Shown here piece after piece: positions 42,263 through 48,651 of a stretch of 64,000 nt of DNA. Positions within the stretch are counted from its first letter, which is position 1, and each line of letters opens with the position of its first letter. The notes beneath the pieces were generated by a model. It was given only the letters and a program-made list of their open reading frames with translations, was not told where the DNA came from and ran no database searches. This DNA is from Labilibacter marinus (lineage in GTDB: Bacteria; Bacteroidota; Bacteroidia; Bacteroidales; Marinilabiliaceae): positions 1 to 64,000 of the forward strand of contig NZ_LXYE02000055.1 in assembly GCF_001659685.2 (NCBI RefSeq). Direction: 5' to 3'. Both the position numbers and the translations under genes were made by a program.

Positions 42263-43600
42263 TTACAACTGTATTGGGACACCTTTATAAAAATCAAGAA
42301 TTTTATTTCTCAAAATATACTCATATTTCGATTGTATAAGATTTGATTGAGCTCTTGTAAAATCCGTTTTAGCCACATTGTAATCCACTGAATTTACCAA
42401 ACCAACATTAAACTTTTCCTCCGTATATCGAAATGATTCTTTAAATGATTCCACAGCCTCATTACTAGAAATATACTTATTATGCGCAGCCAAAGCATCA
42501 GCATATGCTTGCTGTATCTCTTTGCGTAAGGTTAATTTTGCCTGACTTAAAGCATAATTTGCATCGATCACTCGTACTCTTGCATTTTTTACACTATTTC
42601 TGGTCTGTAACTTATTAAAAATAGGCACGTTTAATGTAGCTCCTATATATAAGTTTTTCGTCGAATTAATTTGGTCGCCTAAAGGTCTGTTAATTTTATC
42701 TGGATCATCTTCAAGCCATATAGCATTTGCTCCCCAACTTCCATCAATACTTAAGCGTGGATAATATCCGCTCTTGGCAATATCTACCTCAACTTCAGAA
42801 CTTTGCAGATTATAGTTTGCACCCTTAATCTCTGGCATAATATCAATCGCCATTTTATAAACATCAACAGGTTTAGCCAAGTTGATTTCATTCACTTCTG
42901 GAATTACTGGCGAAATTACATCAAACTCAGCAACATATTCTAAATCTAACAACTGCGCCAAATTTAATAATGATAAACCTAGATTATTTTTTTGCGTAGT
43001 CACATTAAGAGCTTCTTTTGCTGCTTGAGATTTAATTTCAAGATAACTACCCTTAGCTTGACTACCAGCGTCAACCAACTTTTTACTTCTTTCAACCTGC
43101 TGGTTGGTTACCTCATATTGTTCTTCAGCAATAGCTAATAACTCCTTATCAAATAAAATTTGAAGATATTGACTCGTTATGCGTAGTGAAATATCATTTT
43201 TTATTTCCTCCGCCAAAGCCATGGTAGCCATTAAATCTATTTGATTTTGCTTGATTTTATTACTTAAATTGAATCCATTAAACACATCGACAGAAGAGCC
43301 AACTCCTAAACTAAACGAACTATTGTTTACCTCAATATTTTGGGCAGCTTGCTGAACCCAAGTATATCCATAGCTTAGGCCATAACTTGTGCGCCCGTTT
43401 AAATCAGGTAAACGATTTAATTTACTTTGATCTAATTTTGTTTGCTGCAATTGATTATTCACTTCCTGCCTCTTAATAGTAATATTATTATCCAAGGCAT
43501 AGGTAATACATTTCTCTAATGTCCATGCTTCTTGCGCCTTTACATTGGCTGCTTGCACAAAAAGAATGATAACAAGTAATGACAATATCTTATTCATCAT
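42263..43600 (-). CDS. TolC-family outer membrane efflux channel
   Basis: A 445-residue outer-membrane factor. A signal peptide (about 1-22, ending NVKAQ) precedes two related OEP repeats with the typical openings LEKCITYALDNNITIKRQ and VYKMAIDIMPEIKGANYNLQ. Long amphipathic helices (EQYEVTNQQVERSKKLVDAG, AYADALAAHNKYISSNEAVE) form the tunnel. It lies 46 bp after one adaptor gene and before the other, so it is the outer exit of this exporter. Confidence 0.93.
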   Translation of the reverse strand: MMNKILSLLVIILFVQAANVKAQEAWTLEKCITYALDNNITIKRQEVNNQLQQTKLDQSKLNRLPDLNGRTSYGLSYGYTWVQQAAQNIEVNNSSFSLGVGSSVDVFNGFNLSNKIKQNQIDLMATMALAEEIKNDISLRITSQYLQILFDKELLAIAEEQYEVTNQQVERSKKLVDAGSQAKGSYLEIKSQAAKEALNVTTQKNNLGLSLLNLAQLLDLEYVAEFDVISPVIPEVNEINLAKPVDVYKMAIDIMPEIKGANYNLQSSEVEVDIAKSGYYPRLSIDGSWGANAIWLEDDPDKINRPLGDQINSTKNLYIGATLNVPIFNKLQTRNSVKNARVRVIDANYALSQAKLTLRKEIQQAYADALAAHNKYISSNEAVESFKESFRYTEEKFNVGLVNSVDYNVAKTDFTRAQSNLIQSKYEYILRNKILDFYKGVPIQL

Positions 43601-43646: not shown

Positions 43647-44729
43647 TTATGATTTTGGCACTTTAATCTTATCATCTTTTTGAACTCCCGACTTAACCTC
43701 AATCTGGATACCGTCCGAAAGACCTGTTTCAATTTCTTTCTTTTCAAACTGTTGCTCAGCCACCTCTACTTCAACAAATGCGGTATCGTTACTAAATTGC
43801 AAAAGTTTTTCGTTTATAGATAAAACACTATCTCTTCTGTCTAAAACAATATCTGCATTAGCGCTATATCCAGCTCTAATAAACTGACCTTCTTTTAAAT
43901 TAACGTCAGCTTTAATTTCAAACTGAATTGCACCATTTTCTTCTACGCCTTTAGGCGAAATATACTCAAGCTTCGCATCAAATTTTTCTCCTTCAATGGC
44001 TCCGATAGAAAGTAACAAATCCATACCTTCTTTAATTTTACCAACTTCGGTCTCATCAACTTTTCCTTCAAAAATCATTTCACCCATATCAGCCAAAATA
44101 GCTACAGTTGTTCCATCATTAAATGTGTTACTTTTAATCACTGAATTTCCAACTTCAACAGGAACATCTAAAACCATACCCTCGATAGTTGCCTTAATTA
44201 TGGTATTTGTTTGAGCTCCCATATTTTTGGTTACACCTTCTTTAATTAACTGAAGGTTATTATCTGCAGCATTCACATCTTCTTTAGCATTTTCATAGCC
44301 CATTAATTGATCTAAATATTCTGATTCAGCAATAACACCATTATCATACAAATCCTTCTTTCTCTTGTACTCAATTTCGGCATTTTTAAATCTAATCTTA
44401 GCTTTATTCAATTGACTCTCGGCATTATTAACTTGAACCATTTCAGGTATAATCTGAATTTTAGCAATCAGATCACCTTTCTTCAATAAATCACCAGGCT
44501 CCGTATAAATTTCGGTAATAATTCCAGACTCCTGAGGTTTGATCTCAATTTCTTGTCTTGGCACAACAGAACCTGTTGCTACTGTTTTTTTTACGATATC
44601 CTTAAACTCGGCAGATTCGGTTTTGAATACTACCTCTTTTTCTCTGGACTGATCGTATAAATAATAGAAGCCGCCTACAAAAACAAATGCGAACACTACT
44701 ATAAGGATGATGTTTCTAACTCTTTTCAT
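43647..44729 (-). CDS. MacA-like periplasmic adaptor (HlyD family), first copy
   Basis: A 360-residue membrane-fusion protein with an N-terminal anchor (about 5-24). Lipoyl half-motifs are IKPQESGIITEIYTEPGDLL and EGMVLDVPVEVGNSVI. A coiled-coil hairpin (about 100-160) and a barrel domain (VDETEVGKIKEGMDLLLSIG) follow. The gene comes 94 bp after the second permease and 46 bp before TolC. Having a second, diverged adaptor in the same locus suggests that the two work with different permeases or form a mixed ring (inference). Confidence 0.9.
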   Translation of the reverse strand: MKRVRNIILIVVFAFVFVGGFYYLYDQSREKEVVFKTESAEFKDIVKKTVATGSVVPRQEIEIKPQESGIITEIYTEPGDLLKKGDLIAKIQIIPEMVQVNNAESQLNKAKIRFKNAEIEYKRKKDLYDNGVIAESEYLDQLMGYENAKEDVNAADNNLQLIKEGVTKNMGAQTNTIIKATIEGMVLDVPVEVGNSVIKSNTFNDGTTVAILADMGEMIFEGKVDETEVGKIKEGMDLLLSIGAIEGEKFDAKLEYISPKGVEENGAIQFEIKADVNLKEGQFIRAGYSANADIVLDRRDSVLSINEKLLQFSNDTAFVEVEVAEQQFEKKEIETGLSDGIQIEVKSGVQKDDKIKVPKS

Positions 44730-44823: not shown

Positions 44824-46089
44824 TTAATTCTCCTGACGGATAGCCTCAATTGGTTTAATAGCTACAGCTCTTCTGGAAGGTATAACTCCTGCCAAAACCC
44901 CTGAAAATATTAATATTAACAATGACGTTACGGCAACCGTAAAATTCACCTCTGGATTTAAAAAACCAGAATCCGCAGATGGATTACTCCCTATCGCTTG
45001 GCTTATTCCTTCAACAATAAGAACGCCGAAGAACATTCCTAAAAATCCTGCTAAGCCTGTTAAAAAAACCGACTCGGTAATAATTGTTGATATAATATTG
45101 AGAGGTGAAGCACCAATAGCTCGTTTAATACCAATCTCTTGTGTTCTTTCTTTAATGATGATAAGCATGATATTACTAATTCCAATAACACCAGCCAGTA
45201 AAGTACCAATTCCTACTATCCAAACTAGAATGTTGATGCCTAAAAATAATCCGCTCATTTTCTTAAACTCTTCACCAACATTATTAGAACCCATGGCACC
45301 TTCGTCCTCAGGGTGAATATCATGTCGTTTGGCTAATAAGGCCTTCACTTCCTTCTCAACCTTCATGATATCATATTCCGGCTTTGCGGTAATAGCAAAA
45401 TAACCTACAATATTATTATAGTTGTAAACTACCTGACAAGTTGAAAATGGAATAAAAACCGTTTGGTTTTGTTGCTCTCCCCAACGTTGAGAATGTTTGG
45501 ATTCATAAGTTCCGATTACCTGAAAATATATTTCACCAATACGGATATATTTATTTAACGGGTCCTCATCCTTCTCAAACAAATCATTATACACCGTTTT
45601 ACCAATAATGGCTACTTTACGATTACCTTTCAAGTCCATCTCATTGATAAACCTTCCGTGCTTTATGCTTACTGGGTCAATTTTATAATCTTCAGGTATG
45701 ATACCCGTTACCTCGTATGAACCTTCTTGCAATCCACGACTAACAAGCGATGCATTCTGATATCCTCCTCCTTGCATTCTTGGTGCAATAATATCTATAC
45801 CTGCAATGTTATCTTTCATAGCCTGTTTATCCTCATACTTAAAATAGTATCTCCTATTTCGAGGAAAACCTTTATAGGGTTTCGATGTTGGTTGCGTCCA
45901 AACGAACATACTATTCGTGGCAAAGTCGCCCATATTAGCATAAACACCATTCTCAAGACCTTTACCCGCACCCATCATCAGCATGAGCATAAAGATGCCC
46001 CAAAAAACACCAAAGCCTGTTAAGAAAGTACGCAGCTTATTTTTTTTCAGCGTATAAAATATTTCTTGCCATTTATCTAAATCAAACAT
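44824..46089 (-). CDS. MacB-type ABC transporter permease, second copy
   Basis: A 421-residue FtsX/MacB-family permease lacking its own ATPase domain. One helix near the N-terminus (NKLRTFLTGFGVFWGIFMLM, about 15-40) leads into a periplasmic MacB core domain (about 45-280). Three C-terminal helices follow (about 285-310, 335-365 and 380-410), with the cytoplasmic coupling motif KERTQEIGIKRAIGA between the first two. It starts 11 bp after the sister permease, and both open with nearly the same block, so they arose by tandem duplication. The pair probably forms a heterodimer on the shared ATPase. Confidence 0.92.
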   Translation of the reverse strand: MFDLDKWQEIFYTLKKNKLRTFLTGFGVFWGIFMLMLMMGAGKGLENGVYANMGDFATNSMFVWTQPTSKPYKGFPRNRRYYFKYEDKQAMKDNIAGIDIIAPRMQGGGYQNASLVSRGLQEGSYEVTGIIPEDYKIDPVSIKHGRFINEMDLKGNRKVAIIGKTVYNDLFEKDEDPLNKYIRIGEIYFQVIGTYESKHSQRWGEQQNQTVFIPFSTCQVVYNYNNIVGYFAITAKPEYDIMKVEKEVKALLAKRHDIHPEDEGAMGSNNVGEEFKKMSGLFLGINILVWIVGIGTLLAGVIGISNIMLIIIKERTQEIGIKRAIGASPLNIISTIITESVFLTGLAGFLGMFFGVLIVEGISQAIGSNPSADSGFLNPEVNFTVAVTSLLILIFSGVLAGVIPSRRAVAIKPIEAIRQEN

Positions 46090-46100
46090 ACTATTTCGTT

Positions 46101-47321
46101 TTATTCGTCGCGTAATGCAACAATGGGCTTAATTCTAGATGCTCTTCGAGCGGGTACATAACCTGCTAAAGCGCCAGCTAACACAATGAGTAAAGCGGCT
46201 CCAATAGCTATATTAAAATCAACACCTGGATTTCTGAAAAAATCTGAAGCTGGTAATCCTGAGGCTAGCTCCAGTAACCCTACCCCCACCAACAAACCAA
46301 AGAATCCAGCTATTGAGGTAACTATAATCGACTCTTGAAGAATTAAACTAACTACCGATCCAGGAGAGGCTCCAATGGCCTTTCTAATTCCTATTTCTTT
46401 GGTTCGTTCTTTGACTACAATAATCATTATATTACTTACTCCAACAATACCTGCAATGATGGTAAAAATACCTATGACCATAACAAACATGCTAATTCCA
46501 GTAAAAATGGCTTGGGTTTGCTGATAATTTTCTAGTACATTATATCCTCCTAACGCTCTAGTATCTTCAGGATTAAAGCGGTATTTGTCCGCTATAATAC
46601 TCCTAACTTCCTGATACATTGCCTGACTTTCTTCCAAAGTACTTTCTCCAGTTGTAAAAGCTATACTTCCAACATCTTGTTGTCTTCCAAAAACCTTTTG
46701 AGCCACCGTCATAGGTATATAAAAACGTTCCGTCTCGCCAGGATGAACATCATCAAAAATTCCAATTACCTTATGCGGTATTCCTCTTATCTTAATATAT
46801 TCACCTATCGGATTTTCATCCTTGCATAGTCTTTCTTTAGCTTTTCGTCCAATAACTGTGACTTTTCGAGCTTCTTTTATATCAATTAAATTAAGCAATC
46901 TTCCCTCAGCCAATTGAACCGATTCTATGTGCTGATACCCTTCTAAGATTCCCATCACCTGAAAGGTTCCATACTCATTTTTATAATTGATTAATGAGCC
47001 CCACATTCCAATTCTACCTGTTAAATGTCCTAGCTCTGGTATCTTTTTCTGAATCAGTTCAAGGTCCTCATCTTTTAAAGAAATTCTTCTTCCAACATTT
47101 AATCCGTCATGTGCCATAGAAGTTTGTCCGCCCCATAAAAATGCACTATTCTTAGCATCACTAAAGTTGTGCATTACCCCTCGCTCAAGCCCTTTACCTG
47201 CACCTAAAAGAATAACCAGGATGAAAATCCCCCAAAAAACACTAAAGCCTGTTAAGAAAGACCTTAGCTTATTCTTTTTCATGGTACTTATTATTTCCTG
47301 CCAATTACTTAAATCAAGCAT
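46101..47321 (-). CDS. MacB-type ABC transporter permease, first copy
   Basis: A 406-residue permease of the same FtsX/MacB type: N-terminal helix (NKLRSFLTGFSVFWGIFILV), periplasmic core, and three C-terminal helices with KERTKEIGIRKAIGASPGSV. It starts 8 bp inside the end of the ATPase gene, so the two are translationally coupled. Its periplasmic domain is diverged from that of its neighbour (for example IGMWGSLINYKNEYGTFQVM against APRMQGGGYQNASLVSRGLQ), which may give two substrate-contacting surfaces. Confidence 0.92.
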   Translation of the reverse strand: MLDLSNWQEIISTMKKNKLRSFLTGFSVFWGIFILVILLGAGKGLERGVMHNFSDAKNSAFLWGGQTSMAHDGLNVGRRISLKDEDLELIQKKIPELGHLTGRIGMWGSLINYKNEYGTFQVMGILEGYQHIESVQLAEGRLLNLIDIKEARKVTVIGRKAKERLCKDENPIGEYIKIRGIPHKVIGIFDDVHPGETERFYIPMTVAQKVFGRQQDVGSIAFTTGESTLEESQAMYQEVRSIIADKYRFNPEDTRALGGYNVLENYQQTQAIFTGISMFVMVIGIFTIIAGIVGVSNIMIIVVKERTKEIGIRKAIGASPGSVVSLILQESIIVTSIAGFFGLLVGVGLLELASGLPASDFFRNPGVDFNIAIGAALLIVLAGALAGYVPARRASRIKPIVALRDE

Positions 47322-48018
47322 AGGTCATAATTTTATGTGTTTTTTCGCTTTCAATTAATCCATCTTTAAGTTTAATTAAACGATGGGTTTTTTCGGCGAT
47401 ATCGTGCTCATGAGTAACAATCACGACTGTAATACCAGAGTTATTTACTTCTTGTAAAATATCCATCACTTCGTAAGATGTTTGCGTATCCAAAGCTCCT
47501 GTTGGCTCATCGGCAAGTATTACTTTTGGTTTAGATATCAAAGCTCGTGCAATAGCTATCCTTTGTTTTTGACCTCCTGACAATTCGCTTGGCATATGAT
47601 CTGCCCAATCCTTTAGCCCCAGTCTTTCTAGATATTCCAAAGCAATTTCATTCCTTTTTTTACGAGGCACACCTTGGTAGTATAACGGTAGGGCTACATT
47701 CTCAACTGCATTTTTAAACGAAATCAGATTAAACGATTGAAAAATAAAGCCGATATACTGATTTCGAAATGCAGCAGCTTTCTTCTCATTCATCTTCTGA
47801 ATTAGAATGTCGTTGAGATAATATTCCCCTTTATCGTAGTTATCAAGGATCCCTAAAATATTAAGTAGAGTGGACTTTCCTGAACCAGACGATCCCATAA
47901 TGGAAACCATCTCGCCTTCTTTAATATCCACATCTATGCCTTTTAAAACATGTAGTGAATTTGCCCCAGTTATATAGGACTTGTGTAAAGAATTTACTTT
48001 TATGACGCTTTTACTCAC
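47314..48018 (-). CDS. MacB/LolD-type ABC transporter ATPase
   Basis: The energy-coupling subunit of the exporter, 234 residues from a GTG at 48018. A longer frame opens with TTG at 48057, but homologous proteins begin near KSVIKVNSLHKSY, so I prefer the GTG. Walker A is GSSGSGKST (42-50), the Q-loop Gln94, the signature LSGGQ (146-150) and Walker B VILADEPTG (166-174), followed by the D-loop ALDTQT and a switch His in THEHD. This is the MacB/LolD/FtsE class, which drives mechanotransmission rather than passage through the membrane helices. It overlaps the first permease gene by 8 bp. Confidence 0.93.
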   Translation of the reverse strand: MSKSVIKVNSLHKSYITGANSLHVLKGIDVDIKEGEMVSIMGSSGSGKSTLLNILGILDNYDKGEYYLNDILIQKMNEKKAAAFRNQYIGFIFQSFNLISFKNAVENVALPLYYQGVPRKKRNEIALEYLERLGLKDWADHMPSELSGGQKQRIAIARALISKPKVILADEPTGALDTQTSYEVMDILQEVNNSGITVVIVTHEHDIAEKTHRLIKLKDGLIESEKTHKIMTYA

Positions 48019-48101
48019 CTGTAGATGTTTTATGGTTGATATTCTAAAATATGACAATTCTCATATCAACCAGCGTTCCAAAAACAACAATTCGCTGTAT
48101 T

Positions 48102-48117: not shown

Positions 48118-48274
48118 TAATCATAAGTGAGTACTCAAGGTGGTAAGTGTTCATAAATGAACCAGCGATGTACGATTACGAACACTAATCCGAAATCACT
48201 ACACCTTTTAATCTGTAGAAATGTAAAACTTCTTTGTTTCCTCTTAAGTTCAGTTGTTGGTTTTAAGCTCTCCT

Positions 48275-48537: not shown

Positions 48538-48545
48538 CTAAAGTA
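48538..48545 (-). promoter_or_regulatory. Near-consensus -7 element after the repeat array
   Basis: Read on the minus strand, TACTTTAG, one mismatch to TAnnTTTG. It lies 32 bp after the nearest repeat and 35 bp before the small membrane protein start. Confidence 0.35.
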
Positions 48546-48575: not shown

Positions 48576-48651
48576 GCGTGACAAATGCGTGACAGGACTG
48601 TGACAAATGTGTGACATCAAAAAGGCAAAGCGTGACCAAAGCGTGACAAGC
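48576..48651 (-). promoter_or_regulatory. 11-bp phased GTGACA (TGTCAC) operator array
   Basis: Six half-sites start at 48578, 48589, 48600, 48611, 48632 and 48643; five read GTGACA and the one at 48632 reads GTGACC. Spacings are 11, 11, 11, 21 and 11 bp. The full units are GCGTGACAAAT, GCGTGACAGGA, CTGTGACAAAT, GTGTGACATCA, GCGTGACCAAA and GCGTGACAAGC. On the minus strand the core is TGTCAC, the half-site of PhoB boxes, which are also repeated every 11 bp. It is probably the binding site of an OmpR/PhoB-family regulator controlling the genes from 48502 downward. Confidence 0.7.

Follow-up and report, generated by a model that had tools for sequence, protein, structure and literature searches.

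A TGTCAC repeat array before a small membrane protein gene of Labilibacter marinus and its candidate membrane-bound TPR regulator

The window analysed here, a stretch of 64,000 nucleotides from Labilibacter marinus, contains a phased array of TGTCAC half-sites which we interpret, with a probability of roughly two in three, as activator sites of a membrane-bound regulator combining TPR repeats, a transmembrane segment and a helix-turn-helix domain (TPR-TM-HTH) and probably sensing a repeat peptide. According to this proposal, the array would be a strengthened activator site for a one-component regulator whose candidate gene in this genome (G000) is G000:C4:232317-233960, with the TPR region placed outside the inner membrane and connected by a single transmembrane helix to an HTH of the NarL/LuxR type in the cytoplasm. 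Two HTH units would occupy one TGTCAC-N5-TGTCAC repeat about 45-62 bp before the transcription start and, once bound, would recruit RNA polymerase to a TAnnTTTG-type promoter. Three such pairs, which steps of 22 and 32 bp put on roughly one side of the double helix, would thereby drive a small membrane protein of the regulon. The TPR domain would probably respond to a secreted-type precursor peptide as an autoinducing signal, given that the neighbour of the regulator is such a precursor, encoded behind a site of the same kind.

Organization and conservation of the array

Six half-sites are recovered by the sequence and a pattern scan at the positions reported in the first-pass annotation of this DNA, namely GTGACA at 48578, 48589, 48600, 48611 and 48643 and GTGACC at 48632, with successive steps of 11, 11, 11, 21 and 11 bp. 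Its description of three potential dimer sites in a row also stands: on the minus strand these are three TGTCAC-N5-TGTCAC pairs facing the gene for a 75-aa protein. The elements of this region are:

48632-48648, minus strand: distal pair P1, TGTCACGCTTTGGTCAC, read from the sequence, one half being GGTCAC
48617-48631, minus strand: linker between P1 and P2, free of half-sites
48600-48616, minus strand: middle pair P2, TGTCACACATTTGTCAC, an exact match to the pair
48578-48594, minus strand: proximal pair P3, TGTCACGCATTTGTCAC, an exact match to the pair
48538-48545, minus strand: candidate -7 promoter box TACTTTAG of the TAnnTTTG type, 32 nt after P3
48275-48502, minus strand: gene for a 75-aa membrane protein, the likely target of the array

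The first bases of P1, P2 and P3 are 32 and 22 bp apart, or approximately three and two helical turns. The sequence AAGGCA at 48622-48627, within the long step, had been regarded as a decayed in-register half-site. This view does not hold, because five genomes keep a step of 20-21 bp that contains no half-site (21 bp in G000, G002, G005 and G006, and 20 bp in G007), which thus represents a conserved linker. The longest chain of exact half-sites in the window is 5, as against 1 in each of 200 copies generated from it by a first-order Markov model.

The earlier reading had been made dependent on the array being kept at the same locus in related genomes, and within the genus this is what we observe. 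With half-sites taken as NGTCAC, a comparison of the regions upstream of the neighbouring exporter ATPase in 16 genomes recovered the array in eight of the nine members of the genus; it is absent from the seven others that have a close relative of this ATPase. Its size varies from six half-sites (G000, G002, G005, G006 and G007) through four (G003 and G004) to two (G008), the proximal pair being the only one common to all eight array-bearing genomes. The proximal half-site starts 71-86 bp 5' of the ATG of the 75-aa gene in every one of these eight. A search with the 75-aa protein across 71 genomes of the family returned eight positives, which are precisely the eight array genomes, while G001, the ninth member of the genus, is devoid of both the array and the gene. 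As the two occur in the same eight genomes, the array is likely to belong to the 75-aa gene and not to the exporter ATPase. Hence, the original placement of the array ahead of the exporter locus is correct by position, but it is the 75-aa gene (8/8) that the array tracks. The 75-aa protein has no Pfam or NCBIfam match above cut-off.

The neighbouring exporter locus

Downstream of the 75-aa gene lies an exporter locus which is preceded by elements of its own:

48169-48184, minus strand: palindrome TGTTCGTAATCGTACA, perhaps the site of another (sigma54-type) regulator
48066-48080, minus strand: sigma54-like element TGGAACGCTGGTTGA, 5' of the exporter ATPase
47314-48057, minus strand: ABC transporter ATPase, neighbour of the MacB-type permeases and probably a separate transcription unit
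44824-46089 and 46101-47321, minus strand: two MacB_PCD/FtsX permease genes
43647-44729, minus strand: HlyD-type adaptor
42263-43600, minus strand: outer membrane efflux protein

The ATPase has an upstream region of 220 bp, in which the sigma54-like element is situated 23 nt before the ATPase ORF and the palindrome a further 104 nt upstream. The sigma54-like pattern is found in six of 16 ATPase upstream regions (five of the nine from the genus and that of G011), compared with 1% in shuffled sequences, and lies 23-129 nt before the ATPase in those six genomes. The distance from the palindrome to this element is 103-104 nt in G000, G007, G004 and G011, 93 nt in G003 and 172 nt in G008, with G002 showing the palindrome only; the shuffle control pertains to the sigma54-like pattern, the palindrome figures being plain counts. 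As both elements precede the ATPase, the exporter is probably a transcription unit separate from that of the array and the 75-aa gene. ABC ATPases are common, and a search with this one gave matches in 21 of 21 genomes, with at least 67% identity in 16 of them (the nine of the genus together with G009 to G012, G014, G015 and G017) and best values of 40-48% in the other five.

The TGTCAC pair as the marker of a regulon

The exact TGTCAC-N5-TGTCAC pair occurs eight times in the L. marinus genome, as against zero matches for the reversed control pattern, and marks six promoters, five of them besides that of the array. Across the nine genomes of the genus it yields 50 matches, 20 of these within arrays, versus a single control match, and at the level of the family it is present in 13 of 71 genomes (57 matches versus 12 for the control). 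A stricter pattern, TGTCACRNWTTTGTCAC, is restricted to four of 393 genomes sampled from the order, namely G000, G006, G210 and G360, with no control match; this sample includes two members of the genus (G000 and G006), the 391 others thus contributing two positives. Relaxing the simple pair to two or fewer mismatches gives background (123 matches versus 145 for the control), and a longer pattern relaxed to the same extent returns just the known places (8 versus 7). On the whole, it is well supported from sequence comparison that the TGTCAC pair is the operator of an undescribed regulon. The first-pass annotation had suggested such a regulon and ascribed it to the OmpR/PhoB family; the former part is retained, but the latter is disfavoured for reasons considered below.

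The gene neighbourhoods were collected as 35 stretches holding 36 pairs outside arrays, i.e. all except the pair of G035. Genes downstream of these pairs encode DUF6261 proteins, a 67-aa protein, an HGD-D/BcrAD protein, an MCP-like protein, a C39-peptidase ABC exporter with HlyD, a TonB-plug protein and a nuclease, the remainder being peptides or unnamed proteins; some of the products we take to be STAS-like. At two loci (L086 and L096) the pair is followed by a small protein, HlyD and a C39-peptidase ABC exporter, an arrangement reminiscent of a bacteriocin locus (Pfam results refer to L086 only). The pair is also found apart from the TPR-TM-HTH regulator: G031, G032 and G035 possess the pair (within a 412-codon open frame in G031 and G032), with the regulator absent in a profile search, and the pair of G210 has no regulator of this type adjoining it.

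Promoter geometry

The position of the candidate -7 box relative to the pair was compared across 39 sites, comprising the eight array sites and 31 of the 36 pairs outside arrays. The five pairs left out of the count (L089, L099, L108, L109 and L110) looked coding or unrelated to a promoter; L108 and L109 are the two that were checked, and both fall within a 412-codon open frame. With the 39 sites taken together, the four bases that score best are those 32-35 nt after the pair. We take TAnnTTTG to be the -7 element of Bacteroidota, and scored boxes resembling it in the interval 30-35 nt past the pair. The 18 peptide and array sites (set A) score 93, compared with a mean of 60.7 and a maximum of 75 in shuffles, although the p value for this set is not a fair test because the interval was picked after viewing the peptide promoters. 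The 21 other sites (set B) score 86 against a shuffle mean of 72.1 and maximum of 86 (p 0.001), which is a fairer comparison, yet one that includes orthologous promoters. If the transcription start is placed from the box, the pair would lie at about -45 to -62, where activators sit.

An independent case of similar geometry is encountered outside the family in G360, where a single pair is followed exactly 32 nt later by TACTTTTG and then, at 69 and 72 nt, by ATG codons. Behind this pair lies an operon for a 169-aa protein and a 280-aa protein with a C-terminal HTH, which matches Sigma70_r4 at 26.8 bits (cut-off 24.1) and GerE at 15.1 bits (cut-off 23.5). By eye this HTH is of the same kind as that of the TPR proteins; the 280-aa protein has no TPR match in Pfam.

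The candidate regulator

A gene coding for a TPR-TM-HTH protein is located beside the pair in all ten genomes looked at, namely the nine of the genus and G048, although the nine do not amount to nine independent cases because members of a genus share ancestry. The support for this protein as the regulator comes from neighbourhood, co-occurrence and shared geometry, and is as such correlational and partly shared by descent. The locus is also present in the named relatives Labilibacter sediminis, Saccharicrinis and Plebeiobacterium (six loci, from genomes already counted and adding no cases). In the genus the protein is 543-551 aa long; its N-terminus is signal-like, TPR repeats and then a hydrophobic stretch follow, and an HTH forms the C-terminal end, with no receiver domain reported by Pfam. 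As read from the sequence, this layout would place the TPR region outside the inner membrane and the HTH in the cytoplasm.

A profile built from the nine regulators identified 13 positives among the 71 family genomes at E 1e-20 (the nine of the genus, G048 and three of the 14 members of genus g17), ten of which are also among the 13 pair-positive genomes. At E 1e-40 the same profile detected three of the 393 genomes of the order sample, namely G000, G006 and G165; the G165 match is strong (E 5e-61), with neither site nor peptide seen at its locus. In G048, which belongs to another genus, roughly 1.1 kb separates the regulator gene from the pair behind it, and a gene for an 83-aa secreted-type peptide follows the pair. 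In genus g17, G038 (TGTCAC, TGTCAC) and G034 (TGCCAC, TGCCAT) have pairs with a step of 12 bp, not 11, preceding a 71-aa acidic secreted-type peptide that adjoins the regulator, and G030 has the regulator with no clear peptide or pair seen. Second copies of the regulator in G000 (C40) and G001 (C13) are both found beside secreted-type acidic peptides; the former is accompanied by TGTCCC and TGTCTT 11 bp apart, and the latter by no such pair.

Modelled with a mean pLDDT of 78.7 and a pTM of 0.60, the regulator of Labilibacter sediminis shows a TPR superhelix and a long helix (326-431), which a linker of low confidence connects to a helical domain at the C-terminus. TPR folds resemble one another, and among the 50 Foldseek matches listed for this model the highest TMq (0.44) belongs to the phage Rap-pheromone structure 8rsv at rank 43 (TMt 0.63, rmsd 4.8), with eukaryotic TPR proteins ranking above Rap by E-value. 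An AF2 model of the HTH alone (pLDDT 91.1) has the DNA-binding domains of VraR, NarL and LiaR as its nearest solved structures (TMt 0.77-0.82, rmsd 1.5-1.6), at weak Foldseek E-values of 0.12-0.61, none being below 0.001. Sequence-based matches are below cut-off (Pfam GerE 15.0 bits versus 23.5 for the L133 HTH, and Sigma70_r4_2 18.2 versus 25.7), the L128 HTH has no Pfam GerE match, and a sequence search of solved structures with the HTH gave two matches at E 1 or more. The HTH is accordingly described here as NarL/LuxR-like, and not OmpR-like, by structure prediction.

The repeat peptide beside the regulator

In all nine genomes of the genus the pair adjoining the regulator stands directly before a short gene, whose ATG is 65-75 nt after the pair. 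In seven of them the product looks like a protein with a signal peptide and contains 2 to 6 (K/R/E)EDPI(I/V)(I/V)xx units in tandem, the L. marinus version having two KEDPIIIMM units. The unit is nearly uniform within one protein and differs between species. Of the two remaining genomes, G004 has one unit, out of frame with the ATG, and no clean peptide frame, and G001 has a peptide without the repeat together with a divergent regulator gene. The repeat peptides tested have no Pfam or NCBIfam match above cut-off.

Several further small proteins were observed at these and comparable loci. The second TPR-TM-HTH gene of L. marinus (G000:C40:664-2157, L148) is followed by a 67-aa secreted-type acidic peptide with the sequence EEDPVDP and the C-terminus SWLMTLIGF, and similar peptides ending in WILTILGL and WILELLGL occur in G034 and G038. 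At L111 (G048), a peptide with a below-cut-off Pfam NVEALA match (21.4 versus 27 bits) is encoded behind the peptide gene that the pair would drive, and proteins of the NVEALA type may be part of comparable signalling loci. A protein of 120-130 aa (L031:6441-6806 and relatives) comes after the peptide gene in six of the nine genomes of the genus, its L. marinus copy having a DUF7793 match below cut-off.

Alternative explanations

An origin of the array by chance or as a selfish tandem repeat might be entertained, as slippage can expand short tandem units and the number of half-sites ranges from 2 to 6 among genomes. However, the spacers between the half-sites are not alike, the lone pair recurs at unrelated promoters with the box at a fixed distance, and the reversed-pattern and Markov controls are empty; conservation and geometry together make such an origin very unlikely. 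Alternatively, the array could control the MacAB-type exporter as part of one operon that begins with the 75-aa gene. All these genes share one strand, and the 75-aa gene is separated from the ATPase match by 188-375 bp in eight genomes, but eight of the 16 genomes with an ATPase of at least 67% identity have neither the array nor the 75-aa gene (the search for the latter covering G001, G009, G010, G011 and G012 among these eight). The sigma54-like element before the ATPase in five genomes of the genus and in G011, and the palindrome 103-104 nt above it in four of these six, likewise speak for separate control, rendering this alternative improbable.

The regulator itself might be of another kind. 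In a PhoB box, TGTCA(C/T) is directly repeated with an 11-bp period ahead of the promoter, and the resemblance to this build pointed out in the first-pass annotation is borne out by the 11-bp direct repeats of TGTCA-type half-sites. Its remark that the downstream genes are not phosphate genes extends to the other pairs, none of the downstream genes named by Pfam being a phosphate-starvation gene, and a phosphate regulon was dropped on account of these target genes. There is nonetheless a small chance that a response regulator of the PhoB/OmpR family binds the 11-bp repeats, the TPR-HTH locus being merely another target. The genome encodes six OmpR-type DNA-binding domains, and this alternative is kept alive because one of the OmpR-type regulators, on contig C14, has TGTCAT-N5-TGTCAT pairs right behind its own gene. 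Against it, these pairs differ in the last base and face the opposite way relative to the next gene, no OmpR-type domain is found on the contigs of the six promoters (in a draft assembly, with the C13 site near a contig end), and the stricter motif is confined to four of the 393 genomes of the order. The C14 locus (G000:C14:9106-9433, L151) contains genes for an OmpR-family regulator and a kinase, two of the TGTCAT pairs and a gene for a 123-aa secreted-type protein, and the pairs are perhaps the operator of that regulator itself. Unlike the case of the PhoB box, the motif considered here is limited to the genus and a few other genomes, and the regulator next to the pair has a predicted NarL/LuxR-type HTH. 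PhoB/OmpR control of the array is thus disfavoured, and the regulator probably belongs to a different family. Finally, the TPR-TM-HTH protein may be the regulator while the peptide serves as bacteriocin, surface peptide or inhibitor, the TPR domain sensing something else. Bacteriocin regulons hold C39-peptidase ABC exporters with HlyD, as does the present regulon in two genomes; but the peptide gene adjoins the receptor gene in the genus and carries the pair itself, and its unit is species-specific yet nearly uniform within one species. We consider this last alternative rather unlikely, while noting that the peptide as signal, which probably holds, is the boldest step of the preferred reading and is drawn from gene order, repeat structure and the similarity of the predicted TPR fold to Rap.

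Relation to known systems and implications

The TPR-TM-HTH system is reminiscent of the RRNPPA receptors of Bacillota (Rap, NprR and PlcR) in that a TPR receptor gene adjoins a gene for a short secreted propeptide, an arrangement seen in all nine genomes of the genus (the frame in G004 not being clean) and, at 1.1 kb, in G048; the predicted TPR fold is also similar to that of Rap. Propeptides with tandem copies are described among RRNPPA systems in PMC11343458. RRNPPA receptors are, however, soluble cytoplasmic proteins with the TPR region behind an N-terminal HTH or with no HTH, whereas the proteins described here have a signal-like N-terminus, a transmembrane stretch and a C-terminal NarL-like HTH, and their host belongs to Bacteroidota. 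The predicted HTH fold is shared with NarL/FixJ/LuxR regulators such as VraR, LiaR, NarL and ComA, but in the present case it follows a TPR sensor and a membrane-spanning segment, and its putative sites are direct repeats spaced by one helical turn. Most sites of NarL-type domains are inverted repeats, which speaks against the proposed binding. The regulator also shows a weak match to the NCBIfam family NF053779 (BT3442 family, TPR proteins of Bacteroides; 49.6 bits versus a cut-off of 940), whose namesake BT_3442 appears in PMC2954219 as a multi-domain TPR protein without a tested function.

Taken at its widest, and at somewhat less than even odds, this organization may represent a form of peptide quorum sensing in Bacteroidota. 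In such a system a secreted tandem-repeat pre-pro-peptide would provide a species-specific unit, which a TPR receptor, itself the transcription factor, would recognise on the outer side of the inner membrane. The regulon would comprise the peptide's own gene and small membrane proteins, joined in some species by a peptide exporter, and would be switched on through TGTCAC pairs, with the array in the window as the strongest of these sites. Peptide quorum sensing is well described in Bacillota. Among the matches listed from a library of open-access papers, none appeared to report a peptide-receptor pair of this build in Bacteroidota. If the reading is true, the use of one-turn direct repeats by a NarL-type HTH would also be, to our knowledge, unusual. 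The array thus hints at peptide-based cell-to-cell signalling in Bacteroidota, and the idea would be directly testable, since the array would offer a ready reporter promoter, the repeat unit a peptide to synthesise and the receptor gene a mutant.
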